From: Ignavibacteriaceae bacterium
GTDB taxonomy: Bacteria > Bacteroidota > Ignavibacteria > Ignavibacteriales > Ignavibacteriaceae
Direction: 5' to 3'
Assembly (NCBI GenBank): GCA_013042995.1
Contig: JABDPB010000084.1
Coordinates: forward strand, 1-64,000
DNA: 64,000 nucleotides
The position numbers and the translations under genes are program-made. Below, piece by piece: positions 8,866-57,705 of the stretch. The notes beneath the pieces were generated by a model. It made no database searches, was not told where the DNA came from, and worked only from the letters and a program-made list of their open reading frames with translations. Position 1 is the first letter of the stretch. Each line of letters begins with the position of its first letter.

Positions 8866-10125
8866 TCAAGTAACTTCTAAGATGAGTTTACTTTTTACTT
8901 CACCTAGAAGATAGATACTGCCTAGCACCACTAGGCAATTGCTATATTCTCTCGTCCTAAAGTTTCTAACAAACTCTGCCGGGCTATTTGTTACCTCAGC
9001 AGCGATGTTATTTTTTTTACAGATTCTCTTTAACTCGTTAATCTTGGCAGATCGTTCGTACTCAATTTCTGTAAGAACAATTTCATCAAAATGCGGTTTT
9101 AGGGATACAATCATTTCTTCAATTGATTTATCTCTCATTGCTCCAAATAGTAATACCTTTTTACTAAACTGATTTGATTCTTTTTCAAATTCAGTTAAAA
9201 AATTCTCAATGCTTTCGCTATTGTGAGCAGAATCAAAAATGATAAAAGGATTTTTATGAAAATATTCATATCTGCCCTGAATGCATGTGTTCTTGCAAAC
9301 ATTTTTTATTCCATTTCTAAAAATACTTGTATTGTATAGGTTAAATATTTTTGAAACAACTAAAGAAGCCAGTGCAGCATTATATTTTTGATAATTTCCC
9401 TTTAAAGGGATTTCAATATTATTAAAATCTATTTCATTTTTTCCAATTTTTAGAATCAATTCTTCATTGAAAAAATTTTTTAATTGAAAGAGTTCGCTAT
9501 TTGTTTGAACGCATTTTTCTTGAATAACTTTTTCTACTTCAGGTTCTAATTTGCCGGTAAACACTTTTACTCGAGGTTTTATAATCTCAGCTTTTTCAGA
9601 AGCGATTTGTTTGAGTGTATTACCTAAAACGTTTATGTGTTCTAAACTAATCGTGGTAATTACAACTGCATTTGGATTTAAAACATTTGTAGCATCTAAT
9701 CTTCCACCCAAACCTGTTTCTATTATACAATAATCAGTATTTTTCTCTGCAAAATATTTAAATGCAAGAGCAGTAGTAACTTCAAAAAAAGTTAATTGAT
9801 ATTGATCAATATACACTTCGTGTTCAGTCATAAACTCTGCAATGTATTTATCATCGATCTGCAGTCCGTTTATCTGTACTCGTTCATTAAACTTAATAAA
9901 GTGAGGTGAAGTGTATAATCCAATTCTGAACCCAGATTCCTGTAAGATGCTTGCAATAAAAGATGCAGTACTACCTTTTCCATTAGATCCTGCTAAGTGA
10001 ATAATTTTTAATGTTTTTTGCGGGTTACCTAAATAATTAAGAAAGTTAACCGTATTTTCTAAACCAAGTTTTACACCAAAATTATGAAGCGAAAATAATT
10101 TTTTCAGAGATGTTTCAACGTCCAT
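8866..10125 (-). CDS. folC: Folylpolyglutamate synthase / dihydrofolate synthase
   Basis: 419 residues of the Mur-ligase superfamily, adding glutamate to folates or dihydropteroate. The P-loop HLAGSNGKGST is at about 42-52, with TSPH(LIKFNERV-like) at about 74-86, ETGLGGRLDATN in the central domain and DSAHN in the C-terminal domain. The start directly abuts the pyrD stop (zero gap), so it is co-transcribed with pyrK and pyrD. Confidence 0.94.
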   Translation of the reverse strand: MDVETSLKKLFSLHNFGVKLGLENTVNFLNYLGNPQKTLKIIHLAGSNGKGSTASFIASILQESGFRIGLYTSPHFIKFNERVQINGLQIDDKYIAEFMTEHEVYIDQYQLTFFEVTTALAFKYFAEKNTDYCIIETGLGGRLDATNVLNPNAVVITTISLEHINVLGNTLKQIASEKAEIIKPRVKVFTGKLEPEVEKVIQEKCVQTNSELFQLKNFFNEELILKIGKNEIDFNNIEIPLKGNYQKYNAALASLVVSKIFNLYNTSIFRNGIKNVCKNTCIQGRYEYFHKNPFIIFDSAHNSESIENFLTEFEKESNQFSKKVLLFGAMRDKSIEEMIVSLKPHFDEIVLTEIEYERSAKINELKRICKKNNIAAEVTNSPAEFVRNFRTREYSNCLVVLGSIYLLGEVKSKLILEVT

Positions 10126-51472: not shown

Positions 51473-51910
51473 TTATGTGTCTCCTGTTTTGTTTACTTAC
51501 TTTAAGAAAAAGTTATAGCAGTATCTATCCCCAATGACACGCTGAATTATAATTATTTTTTTCGAATTATAAAACAACTTTATATTTATTAAGTAATTTT
51601 AGTGCCAAATATTTCCCATTTAGAATCAATTTGTGTTTGATAATAGTACATTTTTATCCCTGAGTATTTATAAAAAGCAATTAATAATTATCGATCATTT
51701 TATTTGACACCATTAATAATTCCTATCAACTTTATTCGATATTAATTTTTTCTATTATACTTTATTCTTGAATTTAAGATTAAAGCACCCTCAATTCCCA
51801 TTCTTGAAAAAGAATTCTTCAAAAAACATCAAAAATCGAATAATAATCTACTACTAGCTAATGGCAGATAATTTGATAGTAAGTGGTAATAGAAATTCAA
51901 TAGAAAGAAA
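51473..51910. other. Divergent intergenic region, 438 bp
   Basis: It lies between the minus-strand barrel gene and the plus-strand MerR gene. It is very AT-rich and no gene fits. It contains GAATTATAA twice exactly 20 bp apart (51544-51552 and 51564-51572), and TTGAA-N9-TTCAA at 51804-51822 about 90 bp before MerR. Promoters for both genes must lie here. Confidence 0.5.
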
Positions 51911-52357
51911 ATGCAAACAAATATATCAACGAAACCAGTTTATACAATTAGCACTGCAGCAAGACTGCTTGGGATTTCAATTCCCACTCTTCGAATGTAT
52001 GAAACGGAAGGATTAATTATTCCATTTAAAAAATCTAGTAAACACCGTTTGTTTTCTGATGCCGATCTGGAGAGAATCCGCTGTTTAAGAAGAGCATTGA
52101 ATGGTGGTAAAATGGGTCTAGAAAGTATACGACGAATGCTTGCAATCATTCCCTGCTGGGCAATTATCGAATGCACTGAAAAAGACAGAAAAAACTGCGA
52201 AGCATTTACAAGTTATGATAAGCCGTGCTGGATGCACAATCATAAAGATAACGTTTGCAGAGACAGAGACTGTAGAGAGTGCGAGGTATATAACAGTTTT
52301 AGCGATTGTAGCAGCTTGAAAGAAAAGTTTAAAGAATTAGTTCCACCTAAAAAATAA
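51911..52357 (+). CDS. MerR-family regulator with Cys-rich two-CW-like C-terminus
   Basis: 148 residues. The winged helix-turn-helix (about 11-75: YTISTAARLLGISIPTLRMYE) is of the MerR type. The C-terminal half holds eight Cys: 82, 88, 96, 106, 116, 121, 124 and 133, with CW pairs at 82-83 and 106-107 and CRECEVY at the end, resembling a two-CW metal or cluster-binding module. It is 27 bp upstream of the SQR-like gene in the same direction, so it is likely its regulator, sensing sulfide, persulfide or a metal. Confidence 0.85.
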   Translation: MQTNISTKPVYTISTAARLLGISIPTLRMYETEGLIIPFKKSSKHRLFSDADLERIRCLRRALNGGKMGLESIRRMLAIIPCWAIIECTEKDRKNCEAFTSYDKPCWMHNHKDNVCRDRDCRECEVYNSFSDCSSLKEKFKELVPPKK

Positions 52358-52384: not shown

Positions 52385-53614
52385 ATGAAAAAATTAGTAA
52401 TACTCGGTGCCGGAACAGCGGGCACAATGATGTTAAATAAATTACATAATGTGCTAGATAAAAATGAATGGCAGATTACTATAGTTGATCAGCATGAAAC
52501 TCATTACTATCAACCTGGTTTTTTGTTCATTCCATTCAACATTTACACCTGTAAAGATGTTATTAAACCAAAGAGAGATTTCTTTCCAACAGGTGTAAAC
52601 GTAATAAATTCTGAAATAGATAAGATCGAACCGAAAGAAAATAGAGTTCTGCTTAAAGATGGACAGGTAGTCGGCTACGATCAATTAATAATTGCAACAG
52701 GTGCAAAAATAAAACCTGAAGAAACAGAAGGATTGAAAGAAGAACTTTGGTATAAAAGCATTTTTGATTTTTATACTGTGGAAGGTGCATGCGCTCTCCG
52801 CGATTTCTTTAAAAATTGGGAAGGCGGCAAGCTGGTAATTAACATTACCGAAATGCCAATTAAATGCCCGGTTGCACCATTGGAGTTTTCATTCCTCGCA
52901 GATTGGTTTTTTACTGAAAAAGGAATACGAGATAAAGTTGATATCCAATTTGTGACTCCTTTGCCTGGGGCATTTACACAGCCAAAAGCTTCCGCAATTT
53001 TGGGTGATTTTTTGGAGAAGAAGAATATTAAACTTAAAACTGAATTTGGAATAGCAAGAGTAGATGCTGAAAATAAAAAAATTGTTTCATGGGAAGAAGA
53101 AGAAATACCTTTCGATTGCTTGGTAACTATTCCAACAAACATGGGTGATGATGCGATTGAACGAAGCGGAATGGGCAATGAATTTAATTTTATACCAACT
53201 GATAAACAAACCTTAAAAGCATTGGAATACGAAAATATATTTGTTATTGGTGATGCAACCGATCTACCAAGTTCAAAAGCGGGTTCAGTTGCACATTTCC
53301 AGGCTGATATTTTATTAGAGAATTTTCTAAGTGTTGTAGAAGGCCGAGAACCAAATGAAAAATTTGATGGGCATGCAAACTGCTTTATCGAATCCGGCTT
53401 TGGTAAAGGAATTCTGATTGATTTCAATTACGATACCGAACCACTGCCTGGAAAATTTCCACTGCCCGGTGTTGGTCCATTTTCGCTTCTGGAGGAAACA
53501 AAGATGAATCACTACGGTAAAATTATGTTCAGATGGATGTACTGGAATTTTCTTATCAAAGGATTAGAACTGCCGATAGAATCACAGATGTCTATGGCTG
53601 GAAAGCGAGCTTAA
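52385..53614 (+). CDS. SQR-like FAD-dependent oxidoreductase
   Basis: 409 residues of the sulfide:quinone oxidoreductase / flavocytochrome-c sulfide dehydrogenase group. FAD-binding GAGTAGTMM at 8-16, ATG-A at 104-107, and the second FAD motif VIGDATDLP at about 287-295. Likely redox Cys are Cys161 (MPIKCPVAPLEF) and Cys333 (GHANCFIESGFGKG). A C-terminal region with a KMNHYGKIMF-type amphipathic end fits membrane association. It may oxidise sulfide or persulfide and pass electrons to quinone, but a homologue of unknown substrate is possible. Confidence 0.8.
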   Translation: MKKLVILGAGTAGTMMLNKLHNVLDKNEWQITIVDQHETHYYQPGFLFIPFNIYTCKDVIKPKRDFFPTGVNVINSEIDKIEPKENRVLLKDGQVVGYDQLIIATGAKIKPEETEGLKEELWYKSIFDFYTVEGACALRDFFKNWEGGKLVINITEMPIKCPVAPLEFSFLADWFFTEKGIRDKVDIQFVTPLPGAFTQPKASAILGDFLEKKNIKLKTEFGIARVDAENKKIVSWEEEEIPFDCLVTIPTNMGDDAIERSGMGNEFNFIPTDKQTLKALEYENIFVIGDATDLPSSKAGSVAHFQADILLENFLSVVEGREPNEKFDGHANCFIESGFGKGILIDFNYDTEPLPGKFPLPGVGPFSLLEETKMNHYGKIMFRWMYWNFLIKGLELPIESQMSMAGKRA

Positions 53615-53616
53615 AA

Positions 53617-54327
53617 ATGGAAGAAGTAAAAACCCAAACACAAATTGATGAAATAAACAGCAAGCTGGATTTGATTCTGGAAGAGATTGAACTGCAGAAA
53701 AAACACAGACGTGAAATGGAAGATCTAAAGGACGATTTGTTCAGAGTTGGAAAAGATGTTTACGAAACTGCAGTAACAGAACTTGAAGAAGTTCACGATC
53801 ATATAAAAACAGGAGATATCGTTCATCTCGGAAAAAAGCTTTTGAGAAATGTGAATAATCTTAACAGAGCATTTGATCAGCTTGAAAGTACCCGTGATTT
53901 TTTACACGATATTTCACCTCTCGTTCGGGAATCAATAATAGATACAATGAACAAAATGGATGAGTTTGACAGAAAGGGTTACTTCGAGTTCATCAAAGAA
54001 TTGCAAAAAGCAGGAGATAACGTTGTAACATCATTTACACCAAACGATGTTAAACAGTTAGGCGAAAACGTAGTCACAATTTTGAATACAATCAAGAATC
54101 TCACTCAGCCCGATATGCTTCAGGCAATTAATAACGCTATTTCAGTTTACAAAAATATTGATGTTAAAGTTGATGAAAATATATCGCTATTTGGTTTGAT
54201 GAGAGAATTAAATACACCTGAAGTAAAAAGAGGTCTGGCTGTAGGATTAAAATTCCTGAAAAATCTTGCATCGATAGAAGAAAATCAAGAAAAACTAATT
54301 AATATAAATAAAGAACAAATCAATTAA
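53617..54327 (+). CDS. DUF1641-domain protein
   Basis: The start is set at the ATG 2 bp after the SQR stop (236 residues); a longer reading would overlap SQR without support. Mostly helical, with coiled-coil-like N-terminus (EEVKTQTQIDEINSKLDLILEEIELQKKHRREMEDLKDDL) and the DUF1641 core (LQAINNAISVYKNIDV...ISLFGLMRELNTPEVKRGLAVGLKFLKNLA). DUF1641 is known to occur beside SQR-type oxidoreductases; its role is not known. It is followed 9 bp on by the TusE-like gene. Confidence 0.82.
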   Translation: MEEVKTQTQIDEINSKLDLILEEIELQKKHRREMEDLKDDLFRVGKDVYETAVTELEEVHDHIKTGDIVHLGKKLLRNVNNLNRAFDQLESTRDFLHDISPLVRESIIDTMNKMDEFDRKGYFEFIKELQKAGDNVVTSFTPNDVKQLGENVVTILNTIKNLTQPDMLQAINNAISVYKNIDVKVDENISLFGLMRELNTPEVKRGLAVGLKFLKNLASIEENQEKLININKEQIN

Positions 54328-54336
54328 GGAGTAAAA

Positions 54337-54654
54337 ATGGAAACTGTAGAATTAGTAGGAAAACAATTCGAACTTGACGATGATGGTCATTTAAAAAATC
54401 AAAGTGATTGGAATGAAGAAGTTGCAAAAGAATTTGCAAAGTTAGAAGGAATTGAAGAACTCAATGATCGTCATTGGATTGTTATAAACTTTATGCGAAA
54501 AGTTTACCAAGAGAAAGGTGACGCACCTTCAATCCGTAGATTAACCAAAGAAAGTGGTGTTGATACAAAAGAATTATATGCGCTTTTTCCAAAAGGTCCG
54601 GCTAAAAAAGCTGCTAAAATTGCCGGTCTTCCAAAACCAAAAGGTTGTATATAA
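54337..54654 (+). CDS. tusE: TusE/DsrC-family sulfur-carrier protein
   Basis: 105 residues, the family length. The C-terminal arm ends in GLPKPKGCI with the conserved Cys104 next to last. The second Cys of DsrC proteins (about ten residues before) is missing; Ala lies there (KAAKIAG). The single-Cys arm fits TusE-like transfer rather than DsrAB-coupled trisulfide chemistry. DDDGHLKN and RHWIVINFMRKVYQE are other family features. It lies in an operon with SQR and DsrE-like genes. Confidence 0.85.
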   Translation: METVELVGKQFELDDDGHLKNQSDWNEEVAKEFAKLEGIEELNDRHWIVINFMRKVYQEKGDAPSIRRLTKESGVDTKELYALFPKGPAKKAAKIAGLPKPKGCI

Positions 54655-54672: not shown

Positions 54673-55158
54673 ATGGCAGAGCCAATTGAAAAAGTATCAA
54701 TCATTGTATCACGTGGTTCGCTTGAAGGAGTCTATCCAGGATTGATTATGGCTAACGGAGCAAGAATGGAGGGTATTGAGGCAACTTTGTTCTTCACTTT
54801 TTTCGGACTGGATGCAATTATAGATAATCGTATGGACAATCTTAGTGTGGCAACCGTTGGTAATTCTGCAATGCGAATGCCTGGAGGATTAAAGATGCCA
54901 ACCTTTTTGGGTGCAATTCCCGGGATGTCAAAGTTTGCAACAGTTATGATGAAAAAAGAAATGGAAAAAATAGACATTCCTCCAGTTCGTGAATTTGTTG
55001 AACTTATTCATGATTCAGGTGGTGAGTTGTACGCATGCAAAGCAACTGTTGATATGTTTCACTTAAATAAAAAAGATTTCTGCCCTCAGGTTTCAGAAAT
55101 TATTTCCGTTGGGGAATTTTATGAAAAATCTGCAGGTGCAAAAATAATTTTCACTTAG
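54673..55158 (+). CDS. DsrE/DsrE2-family sulfurtransferase
   Basis: 161 residues. The N-terminal strand EKVSIIVSRGSLEGVYPGLIMANGARMEGIEATLFFTFFGLDAI matches the DsrE-like fold. The conserved Cys122 in LYACKATVDMF is the probable persulfide-carrying residue, and Cys137 a second candidate. It is expected to move sulfane sulfur between SQR and TusE-like proteins. It is preceded by GGGG-rich RBS and lies 18 bp after tusE. Confidence 0.83.
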   Translation: MAEPIEKVSIIVSRGSLEGVYPGLIMANGARMEGIEATLFFTFFGLDAIIDNRMDNLSVATVGNSAMRMPGGLKMPTFLGAIPGMSKFATVMMKKEMEKIDIPPVREFVELIHDSGGELYACKATVDMFHLNKKDFCPQVSEIISVGEFYEKSAGAKIIFT

Positions 55159-55216: not shown

Positions 55217-56539
55217 ATGGTTCGTCAAAATATTAAGATTGCAGTATTAACTTTAACTGCAACTGTTTTTTTAACAATTAACCTTTTTGCAACTGATGGT
55301 TACTTCAGACATGGCTATGGGATAAAGTATTCTGCATTAGCTGGTTCTGGTGTTGCAGTTCCGCTGAGTTCGCTTGGCGCAATTACAAATCCTGCGGGGT
55401 TAGCATTCGTTCCGACTCAGTATAATTTTAACATTGCATTCTTTAGTCCAATGCGAGAATATACTGTAACTGGAAATCCATCCGATCCAAATCAATTTCC
55501 AGGTACATTCGGATTGCAACCAGGAACAATAGAAAGCGAGACAAAATTATTTGTATTTCCAACTCTTGGAGCAAACTGGAAAATAAATCCAACAATGGCT
55601 GTTGGACTTGTTGTATACGGAAATGGCGGAATGAATACTGATTATCCAACACAAACATTCTATGATCCAAATTCACCGAGTACCGGTGTGAACTTAGAAC
55701 AATTGTTTGTTGGTGCTACGTATGCCATTGAATTTATAAAAGATCATTCACTTGGTGTTACTGCTTTATTTGCATGGCAGAAGTTTCGTGCAAAAGGTCT
55801 TGCTTCTTTCTCTGCTTTCTCAAGTGATCCGGCAAACCTAACTGGAAATAGTAATAGTATTTCTACAGGTTTTGGTGGAAAAGTTGGTTACCAGGGGCAG
55901 TTCGGAAATATTATAAGATTAGGTGCATCATTTCAAACGAAAATGTATATGAGTGAATTTGATAGATACAAAGGTTTATTTGCTGAAATGGGAGGTTTTG
56001 ATATTCCCGCAAATTGGCAAGCTGGAATTGCTGTGATGCCCAATAAAGAACTTACACTAATGCTGGATGTACAACAGATTCTTTACAGCGGGGTTAAATC
56101 TATTGCCAATCCTATGGATCTAGTTAACAACTCGCCTAGTCTTCCAAACGGAACTCCTAATCCTAACTTTCAACCTTTAGGAACGAATGAAGGATGGGGT
56201 TTTGGTTGGGAAGATATGACAATTGTTAAGTTTGGAGCAATGTATGAATTGCCACAAAACTGGACTTTGTATGGTGGTTATTCTTATGGCAAACAACCAA
56301 TTCCCGAAGCTGAAGTGTTATTTAATATTTTAGCTCCAGGAACAGTTGAACATCACATCACACTTGGTTTATCTAAAATGTTCTGCAACTCTCAAGAAGT
56401 AATGATTGCACTTATGTATGCACCAGCAGGAAATGTAAAAGGCAATAATCCCTTAGATCCTCCAAGCCAGCAAACAATTGAACTTCAAATGAGTCAATTT
56501 CAAGTAGAAGTTGGATACGCTTTCAGTTTAGTTCAATAA
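55217..56539 (+). CDS. FadL/OMPP1/TodX-family outer-membrane transport protein
   Basis: 440 residues, signal peptide (about 1-24) and then the FadL hallmark GYFRHGYGIKYSALAGSGVAVPL with NPAGLAFV. The remaining strands end in FQVEVGYAFSLVQ, as in a 14-stranded barrel. FadL channels pass hydrophobic molecules across the outer membrane. In this sulfur-handling operon the cargo might be hydrophobic sulfur compounds, but that is inference. A strong terminator follows. Confidence 0.9.
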   Translation: MVRQNIKIAVLTLTATVFLTINLFATDGYFRHGYGIKYSALAGSGVAVPLSSLGAITNPAGLAFVPTQYNFNIAFFSPMREYTVTGNPSDPNQFPGTFGLQPGTIESETKLFVFPTLGANWKINPTMAVGLVVYGNGGMNTDYPTQTFYDPNSPSTGVNLEQLFVGATYAIEFIKDHSLGVTALFAWQKFRAKGLASFSAFSSDPANLTGNSNSISTGFGGKVGYQGQFGNIIRLGASFQTKMYMSEFDRYKGLFAEMGGFDIPANWQAGIAVMPNKELTLMLDVQQILYSGVKSIANPMDLVNNSPSLPNGTPNPNFQPLGTNEGWGFGWEDMTIVKFGAMYELPQNWTLYGGYSYGKQPIPEAEVLFNILAPGTVEHHITLGLSKMFCNSQEVMIALMYAPAGNVKGNNPLDPPSQQTIELQMSQFQVEVGYAFSLVQ

Positions 56540-56607: not shown

Positions 56608-57705
56608 ATGAATATGTATCGCTTAACAATTTCAATAACATTGCTACTTCTTAGTTTTGTTATTTATGCCGACGATGTTGAACATGGTATGTATATGCTC
56701 ACAGTGAAAAATGCAAAAGGTGATTTTAATCAAATTAACTCATTTGTTGTTAAATCAATTGAATCATCAGGATTTAGAATACTTGCTGACCGTGATGTAT
56801 CAACTCCAGATAACGTTAGGGAAGAGGGTGAGGATCTTTGCGGTTACAAAGGAAAACTAATCGTTTTTACAAATGATGACTATATAAATATGCTTACTTC
56901 CTTTGGAAACAAGTATTTAGTTGCTTCCTTTTTACGAATAGGAATTCACGAAACAAACGAGGGTATTCAGATCATAATTGCTGATCCTGAAACAATTAAT
57001 AGAATTATTTTTAATGATTTAGATGACGAAAATTATGAAAAGGCAGTCATGAAAACCTTGCCATTTAAGTCTAAAATTATTACTACCCTTCATTCGTTAA
57101 AATTGGGAACAAACGTCGAGGAAATCCGTGATCCTAAAAGGAGTACTGAAGATCTGCGGGAGGCATCTAGAGATATGTTCATGATGGTTGGACCGATGAC
57201 TTTTTTTGATGATGAAGATCAGTTCCCAAAAATTTATTCTCAGAAAAATGAAAATGGTAGTCAAGGACTTGAAAATTTAAAACAAAAAATGTTCAAGAAT
57301 ATAGAAAATTTTCAACCGACTGAAGATGATACAGAATATCGCTGGACAAAAGAACCAAAAGAAGATTTGAAGTGGAAAGTAGTTGGTAAAGTTATTTCAC
57401 CTGATAAAAAAGCAATTATGTTCGGATTGACACGTAACCGGACGGAAGCAGTTTCATTCTATATTGTAGGTGATGAAACTGAAGAAAATAAATGTCCAGG
57501 GCTCGATCATTTAACTGCATATCCGATTGAAGTTTTATTGATGATTGATGATGGAGAAGATGTAGTTTATACTCCGAGAGAAATGTTCAGAATGGATATG
57601 TATTTCTGGGATGCAGGTATGGGTGCGTTTATGAACCATATGAGTATGCCGGACATTCTCGATGAGTCTATTTACAAAGCTCTGTTTGCAAAAGAAAAAG
57701 ATTAA
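56608..57705 (+). CDS. Secreted DUF302-like protein of unknown function
   Basis: 365 residues with a signal peptide (about 1-21). The first half has a DUF302-like pattern: FVVKSIESSGFRILADRDVS near the start and FRIGIHE-like ASFLRIGIHE...IIIADPETINRIIF. The second half, after a linker rich in Glu/Asn, is a beta-rich domain (WKVVGKVISPDKKAIMFGL, YPIEVLLMIDDGEDVVYTPREMFRMDMYFWDAGMGAFMNHMSMP). It has its own promoter region after the FadL terminator. DUF302 proteins are often found in sulfur-oxidation loci. Confidence 0.7.
   Translation: MNMYRLTISITLLLLSFVIYADDVEHGMYMLTVKNAKGDFNQINSFVVKSIESSGFRILADRDVSTPDNVREEGEDLCGYKGKLIVFTNDDYINMLTSFGNKYLVASFLRIGIHETNEGIQIIIADPETINRIIFNDLDDENYEKAVMKTLPFKSKIITTLHSLKLGTNVEEIRDPKRSTEDLREASRDMFMMVGPMTFFDDEDQFPKIYSQKNENGSQGLENLKQKMFKNIENFQPTEDDTEYRWTKEPKEDLKWKVVGKVISPDKKAIMFGLTRNRTEAVSFYIVGDETEENKCPGLDHLTAYPIEVLLMIDDGEDVVYTPREMFRMDMYFWDAGMGAFMNHMSMPDILDESIYKALFAKEKD

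Follow-up and report, generated by a model that had tools for sequence, protein, structure and literature searches.

A cysteine-rich MerR-type protein as candidate regulator of sulfur operons with sigma-54-type promoters in Ignavibacteria and their kin

Introduction

What does a MerR-type protein with an unusual cysteine-rich C-terminus control when its gene precedes that of a putative sulfide-oxidizing enzyme, where on the DNA would it act, and to which signal might it respond? These questions are raised by a gene in the window, the whole stretch of 64,000 nucleotides analyzed here from an Ignavibacteriaceae bacterium:

51911..52357, + strand: regulator gene, here called MerR-CW; 148 amino acids, with the helix-turn-helix (HTH) domain at residues 11-78 and a Cys-rich tail at residues 79-148

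A sequence-only reading of this DNA had described the encoded protein as a MerR regulator with eight Cys residues in an arrangement with two CW pairs, and had suggested that it may bind a metal or an Fe-S cluster and sense sulfide or the redox state.

A MerR-type HTH domain joined to a cysteine-rich tail

In a scan of the whole protein, the HTH domain is matched by the Pfam model MerR_1 (PF13411) with an E-value of 6.4e-15 and 55.5 bits (cut-off 21.6), and not a single Pfam model matches the tail of the 148-residue protein at an E-value of 1. There are nine cysteines in total (positions 58, 82, 88, 96, 106, 116, 121, 124 and 133), eight of which are located in the C-terminal half; the ninth, C58, which the original description passed over, lies within the HTH domain. 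The two CW pairs correspond to C82-W83 and C106-W107, and the segment CRECEVY comprises residues 121-127. The open reading frame, the Cys positions and the MerR_1 match thus agree with the original description of the protein.

The AlphaFold2 model, built with 81 sequences (mean pLDDT 89.7, pTM 0.81), places C58 inside the helix formed by residues 50-64, and C133 opens the helix spanning residues 133-143. Past the HTH domain it predicts short helices only, and the long dimerisation helix is absent, which bears out the earlier remark that the C-terminus is unlike that of classical MerR proteins. Structures matching the model are HTH domains of the MerR family, for instance those of GlnR, TnrA, SoxR and HiNmlR. 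The Cys-rich tail had no match among PDB sequences at an E-value of 5, and a Foldseek search with a separate model of the tail (pTM 0.62) returned none either; a solved relative of the tail was thus not found in these searches.

The MerR-CW family

MerR-CW proteins are, as judged from their sequences, one coherent family. Within a group of 41 related genomes, 25 places in 22 genomes match the regulator across about 126 or more residues, and the remaining matches cover the HTH region alone or reach slightly beyond it. Searching 84,980 species genomes added 77 loci (taken from the best 80 of 169 relatives), whose labels read Ignavibacteria/Ignavibacteriales, Melioribacteraceae, Kapaibacterium, Chlorobiota, Bacteroidetes or plain 'bacterium'. 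At the level of the phylum, 41 of 395 genomes contain a match (E 1e-15), and 117 of the 294 genomes of the class match a profile of the tail (E 0.01). From the longer list of tail-profile places, 100 were fetched, and most others were already in the set; some weak or cut places (e.g., in G545, G548, G591, G581, G487 and G172) were left out, and L208 (G029) and L209 (G034) stand outside the analyzed set.

The first-pass sample consisted of 106 proteins with 105 upstream regions. In the final set, 298 matches were condensed to 189 distinct rows, each having 115 or more filled columns; one of these, L213, is a cut copy of the second regulator of L062, and its removal left 188 proteins and 186 upstream regions, two rows being without a usable upstream region. 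Counts given below on 189 proteins or 187 regions still include this copy. The genome from which the window derives possesses one paralogue of the regulator, L022 (G000:C48:9600-22000), which lacks both C58 and C133.

Seven constrained cysteines and a pair that tends to be lost together

Among the 188 distinct proteins, C82, C96, C106, W107, C121 and C124 never vary; C88 is present in 186 of them and C116 in 182. The seven-Cys pattern is not due to chance, because the cysteines from C82 to C124 are retained in 182-188 of the 188 proteins and W107 in every one. That this module holds a metal or a cluster is, in our estimate, evenly balanced; such binding would fit both the seven-Cys pattern and the distant relation of the tail to the two-CW domain discussed below.

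The two other cysteines behave differently. In 187 proteins (the cut-short L102 being excluded; 188 if the copy L213 is counted), C58 and C133 are both present in 178 and both missing in six; only C58 is lost in two and only C133 in one. When one protein is taken from each of the 130 clusters at 80% identity, the corresponding numbers are 122, five, and two plus one single losses. Fisher's test on this co-occurrence yields 3.5e-9 on the tips of the tree, which are related to each other, and 4.3e-7 on the 130 clusters. On the tree, C58 and C133 need five and six changes, respectively, and the four independent pairs that can be drawn from it comprise on average 2.7 that change in the same direction, 0 in opposite directions and 1.3 that do not differ, too few for significance. 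The double losses are not all alike: L335 and L337, which are at least 60% identical, are both devoid of C116; the long-branch paralogue L022 has no Cys at aligned position 116 and a shifted one nearby; and L043, L134 and L338 retain C116 together with the other tail cysteines. Since proteins without C58 often also lack C116 (four of eight, as aligned), general decay explains part of the C58-C133 pattern. The genomic setting of these proteins differs as well: only one of the eight C58-less proteins accompanies a sulfur operon of the three main types described below (or lies just after an SQR operon), in comparison with 147 of the 179 proteins possessing C58. From these sequence patterns we tentatively suggest that C58 and C133 may form a second Cys pair that acts as a switch, an idea to which we give somewhat less than even weight.

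In an alternative view, the tail would hold an Fe-S cluster as a sensor of oxygen or of the redox state, in the manner of SoxR, with the sulfur operons constituting an anaerobic regulon. Seven conserved cysteines would suffice for a cluster, and several of the partner proteins are anaerobic respiratory enzymes; however, the Cys spacing differs from that of the SoxR motif, and the SoxR model scores 26 bits where 117 are needed. We regard this explanation as unlikely.

A probable operator palindrome overlapping a sigma-54-type promoter element

The exact sequence TTGATA-N8-TATCAA is present in 45 of the 105 upstream regions of the first-pass sample, and any inverted repeat reached at most two in five shuffled sets; the consensus of the family operator reads AAAGTTGATATTTATAAATATCAACTTT. 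A PWM was built from the exact sites and refined on 83 sites. It exceeds the 99% shuffle level in 87/105 regions, a figure that is partly circular; beyond that set, 18 of 82 regions give a match, against an expectation of about one, and 64 are without the palindrome. This amounts to 105/186 regions, or 75/130 with one protein per 80% cluster; many of the distant members carry core variants or no recognizable site. A recognition-helix code that would relate residues 24-25 to the operator variant was sought, and it is not clean.

The palindrome overlaps a second element, TGGCA-N6-TTG, whose geometry is that of the -24 and -12 boxes of sigma-54 promoters. With TTG at an offset of 11, it occurs exactly in 115/187 regions (copy L213 included; 114/186 without it) and in 80/130 by 80% cluster; the exact TGGCA-TTG controls gave 0-1 at offsets 7-10 and 12-16, 0-2 in shuffles and five on the opposite strand. 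The element appears in 153/187 regions if one mismatch is tolerated, in comparison with 31 regions on the opposite strand and 13-46 at offsets other than 11. In the alignment columns beside 94 palindromes, TGGCA is conserved to 88-99% per base and starts 7 nt before the 28-bp site, and, of 106 palindromes, 93 begin 7 nt after TGGCA. Altogether, 90 of the 186 regions have both elements, 15 the palindrome alone, 24 TGGCA-N6-TTG alone, and 57 neither.

The consensus given in the source consulted for sigma-54 promoters is tGGcacg/tTGCt (PMC4641369). Across the 153 regions that match exactly or with one mismatch, the -12 box is TTGAT in 67, TTGAC in 27, TTGTA in 13, TTGCT in 12, TTGGT in six and CTGCA in five, with others making up the rest. 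Whereas the canonical sigma-54 -12 box reads TTGC, most palindrome-bearing promoters here read TTGA, and canonical-like TTGC or CTGC boxes are a minority; since TTGA or TTGT predominates, the box appears to have been remodeled by the palindrome arm. The rpoN gene is present in 39 of the 41 relatives, including the genome of the window, and the two misses concern genomes that are 77% and 81% complete. No gene for an enhancer-binding protein was detected in the window at an E-value of 1e-10; one is located within the flanks (E 1e-30) at seven of the fetched loci, of which L124 and L287 are the same place. Some of the leaders implied by the predicted start points would be very short. Taken by their upstream sequences, the regulators of this family probably sit at sigma-54 promoters.

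Most characterized MerR proteins activate transcription by binding between the two boxes of a sigma-70 promoter and twisting it upon receipt of their signal, and MerR-CW might do the same, with TGGCA serving some other purpose. The left arm of the operator (TTGACA/TTGATA) indeed resembles a -35 box, and the palindrome center TATAAA a -10 box. TGGCA, however, is one-sided, nearly invariant at palindromes and positioned 11 nt before TTG in 115/187 regions; certain family members have TTGCT or CTGCA at the -12 position; and the column profile exhibits neither a conserved -10 box after the palindrome nor a TTG-like box 17-19 nt before its center. We consider a sigma-70 activator to be quite unlikely, and favor a regulator acting at sigma-54-type promoters.

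Genes probably controlled by MerR-CW

In the window, the regulator is followed by co-oriented genes:

52385..53614, + strand: type III sulfide:quinone oxidoreductase (SQR)-like gene (NCBIfam NF049943, 663 bits, cut-off 525; Pyr_redox_2)
53617..54327, + strand: DUF1641 gene (PF07849, E 1.3e-10)
54337..54654, + strand: DsrC/TusE-like gene (PF04358, E 1.3e-37)
54673..55158, + strand: DsrE2-like gene (PF13686, E 1.6e-30)
55217..56539, + strand: gene for a FadL/OmpP1-like outer-membrane protein (PF03349, E 1.1e-13)
56608..57705, + strand: gene for a 365-residue protein, without a Pfam match at E 0.001

The SQR-like gene is the first partner gene and starts 27 nt past the regulator; the two genes upstream of the regulator have the opposite orientation. 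As listed (53533-54327), the DUF1641 reading frame shares 82 nt with the SQR gene, and the likelier start is the ATG at 53617, which immediately follows the stop codon of SQR. A FadL/OmpP1-like gene closes, or nearly closes, several of these operons. Proteins resembling the 365-residue protein are also encoded directly after the regulator at L070, L072 (by length), L073 and L074 (by eye); the protein would be a further component of the SQR operon.

Across the 188 proteins, the co-directional genes after the regulator belong to PSR operons in 65 cases, OTR operons in 49 and SQR operons in 32, with the PSR and OTR operons beyond the annotated loci assigned by phmmer comparison to seed proteins. 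The regulator therefore leads three unrelated types of sulfur operon in 146/188 cases; the others lie after an SQR operon (three) or fall into the classes partial (seven), other (16) and none (16). In the single locus annotated for each, the PSR operon encodes a PhsA-like molybdoenzyme, PsrB-like and NrfD-like proteins, two YeeE/TsuA-like halves and a rhodanese, and the OTR operon a cytochrome of the octaheme tetrathionate reductase family (TIGR04315), a cytochrome b561, YeeE-like halves and a rhodanese. The partial and other classes include DsrE2-TusA-CCG/Fer4 operons and a Pyr_redox/Fer4-FlpD-FrhB-like operon (one locus annotated each); the partner at L043 is a DUF302 gene. The paralogue L022 leads a Nitrate_red_gam and CCG/Fer4 (DsrM/K-like) pair that may likewise have a link to sulfur; genes for a response regulator and a sigma-54 activator come next. 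Mapping the three partner labels onto a tree of 105 rows takes 17 changes, so that, as far as a short alignment can show, regulator and operons appear to have been re-paired often. At L316, L319, L320, L321, L324 and other loci there is no co-directional partner; instead, a convergent gene of about 750 codons and further genes are found, which at L320 are cystathionine- and cysteine-synthase-like (by eye).

The association can also be viewed from the side of the targets. Among the 41 relatives, SQR genes are present in four genomes and lie behind the regulator in all four, and 11 of the 12 PhsA genes with at least 69% identity do so as well; the PhsA gene of G034 has neither the regulator ahead of it nor the palindrome. 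OTR genes (at least 52% identity) lie behind the regulator in seven of 19 cases (once with a FadL-like gene in between) and elsewhere in 12. At these 12 regulator-free OTR genes, the palindrome score never rises above 0 within 900 nt, and TGGCA-N6-TTG is absent within 750 nt. Seven of the 12 operons (L175-L180, L183) have a MarR-like gene just upstream, and Pfam MarR was matched in the three of them tested (3/3); a MarR-like gene in the place of the regulator at OTR operons is a natural regulator swap. Conversely, a PhsA-like gene without an adjacent regulator in G007 has both the palindrome and the TGGCA element, and a second perfect palindrome in this genome is flanked by a molybdate-transporter-like operon (by eye) on one side and by a Rieske/cytochrome operon on the other. 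The 20-bp palindrome core occurs nine times in 17 genomes with at most one mismatch; seven copies are at a MerR-CW gene, and the remaining two are in G007, ahead of other redox genes. MerR-CW is very probably the regulator of these sulfur operons.

These partners also bear on the proposal that the tail is a sensor of Zn, Cu, Cd or Hg like MerR, CueR and ZntR, with sulfide merely trapping or following metals. Cys-rich MerR proteins typically sense metals, and C82, by an unaligned comparison, would lie close to a metal-binding Cys of Tn501 MerR; yet the partners that could be named comprise enzymes of sulfur and other redox reactions together with their transporters, with no metal efflux gene among them, and the metal-sensor models of NCBIfam match mainly the HTH domain with scores far under their cut-offs, the MerR model (TIGR02051) extending to residue 95. 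We regard a metal sensor as very improbable.

The predicted operator and promoter in the window

51862..51877, + strand: sigma-54-type promoter TGGCA-GATAAT-TTGAT (-24/-12), with the letters TGGCAGATAATTTGAT; no other TGGCA-N6-TTGAT occurs on either strand of the window
51869..51896, + strand: degenerate operator copy, positioned as in relatives; the left arm TTTGATA is present, the right arm lost

The transcription start is predicted near position 51888 from the usual sigma-54 spacing. The PWM score of the operator copy is -4.6, under the 95% shuffle level of -1.5. In the genome of the window, an operator search at one mismatch gave 32 matches versus 23 for the control, no clear excess, and with three mismatches the 20-bp core was matched once versus three times for the control. 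The best other operator match in the window, at 9792, scores 10.3; it lies inside a folC-like reading frame (by eye) and was taken as chance, and eight other pairs of inverted repeats upstream of the regulator gene are unlike the family palindrome. Given the intact promoter element and the lost right arm, the promoter appears conserved in this genome and the operator is doubtful. That the window copy is a relic whose operon has escaped its control would agree with the low site score and the lack of a good copy elsewhere in the genome, but all nine cysteines, the HTH domain and the sigma-54-type element are intact and the gene is still part of the operon, and we give this explanation little credence.

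A model for MerR-CW and its implications

We consider it fairly probable that MerR-CW is an HspR-like autorepressor of sigma-54 sulfur operons that is released by a sulfur or redox signal at its cysteines. The targets and the promoter geometry are well supported by sequence comparison; the dimer, the repression, the signal, the metal and the binding of the half-degenerate site in the window are inferred. In this model, a compact seven-Cys, two-CW-like module would replace the usual MerR dimerisation helix. The regulator, encoded by the first gene of its own operon, would bind as a dimer to a TTGATA-N8-TATCAA-type palindrome and thereby cover the -12 element and the start point, blocking RNA polymerase. 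An operator over the -12 box and the start point favors repression, which we regard as a reasonably probable mode of action. Sulfane sulfur, sulfide or a related sulfur/redox signal would act on the cysteines, the likeliest site being the C58-C133 pair, which would connect the HTH domain and the last helix; the remaining seven cysteines would hold a structural metal or cluster. MerR proteins are not known to have an AAA+ part with which to open a sigma-54 complex, and an unlinked activator would therefore be needed: upon release of the repressor, an unlinked enhancer-binding protein would start transcription.

For the nature of the signal we rely on the partner enzymes and the Cys pair. The original suggestion that the protein senses sulfide or the redox state hence stands in part: the mostly sulfur-related operon partners, the constraint on the cysteines and the co-loss of C58 and C133 speak indirectly in its favor, and the signal itself is deduced.

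These data provide a candidate regulator, operator and promoter for operons of sulfide oxidation, of polysulfide/thiosulfate reduction and of the octaheme tetrathionate-reductase-like type in Ignavibacteria and their kin, for which none was found in the open-access literature that was searched. Finding a MerR protein at a sigma-54 promoter would, if true, be uncommon, and with C58 and C133 the mode of sulfur sensing comes down to just two residues that can be probed. A bolder reading, which we regard as speculative and rather doubtful, is that of a new class of sulfur sensors. A MerR repressor of sigma-54 promoters would here combine a seven-Cys, two-CW-like module of structural role with a distinct thiol pair, C58-C133, whose reaction with sulfane sulfur switches DNA binding, and its gene would have been placed many times at the head of unrelated operons for sulfur respiration throughout a bacterial class.

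Comparison with known systems

One of the closest known systems is HspR, a heat-shock repressor of the MerR family whose model is the best NCBIfam match of the window protein (NF047375, 50.6 bits, on the HTH part), although this score is below the HspR cut-off of 105 bits. The HAIR inverted repeat of HspR is given as CTTGAGT-N7-ACTCAAG in the source consulted (PMC6102357), and its TTGA/TCAA arms are also present in the operator described here. MerR-CW differs from HspR by its Cys-rich tail, its sulfur partners, the arms of its operator that are one base further apart, and its sigma-54-type promoter.

The tail resembles the two-CW domain (NCBIfam NF045718) in the order of the CW, Cys and C-x2-C-x-[VF]Y motifs, and hhalign pairs the conserved motifs when the tail profile is compared with seven two-CW proteins (probability 82.5, E 9.8e-6); 28 of 81 family tails match at an E-value of at most 1 (best 0.0013). 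In contrast, the tail of the window protein itself has no match, that of the orthologue from G023 reaches 16.6 bits against a cut-off of 35, and the MerR-CW tail is shorter; the HTH domain is absent from the seven two-CW proteins seen. Stand-alone two-CW proteins of about 100 residues are encoded in related genomes (L045-L049, L057, L058), as neighboring pairs in two of them.

MerR, CueR, ZntR and SoxR share the HTH fold with MerR-CW, whose model lacks their long dimerisation helix and whose Cys pattern is another one; the SoxR model (TIGR01950) yields 26.2 bits against a cut-off of 116.9. Classical MerR activators, though not all members of the family, have their operator inside the long spacer of a sigma-70 promoter, whereas the operator here, on sequence evidence, overlaps the TGGCA-N6-TTG element.

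FisR is an enhancer-binding protein of sigma-54. Together with SqrR, CstR and MarR proteins, it is listed among the sulfane-sulfur regulators in the literature (PMC11211675). These proteins control sulfur genes through reactive cysteines, as we propose for MerR-CW, but they belong to other protein families.
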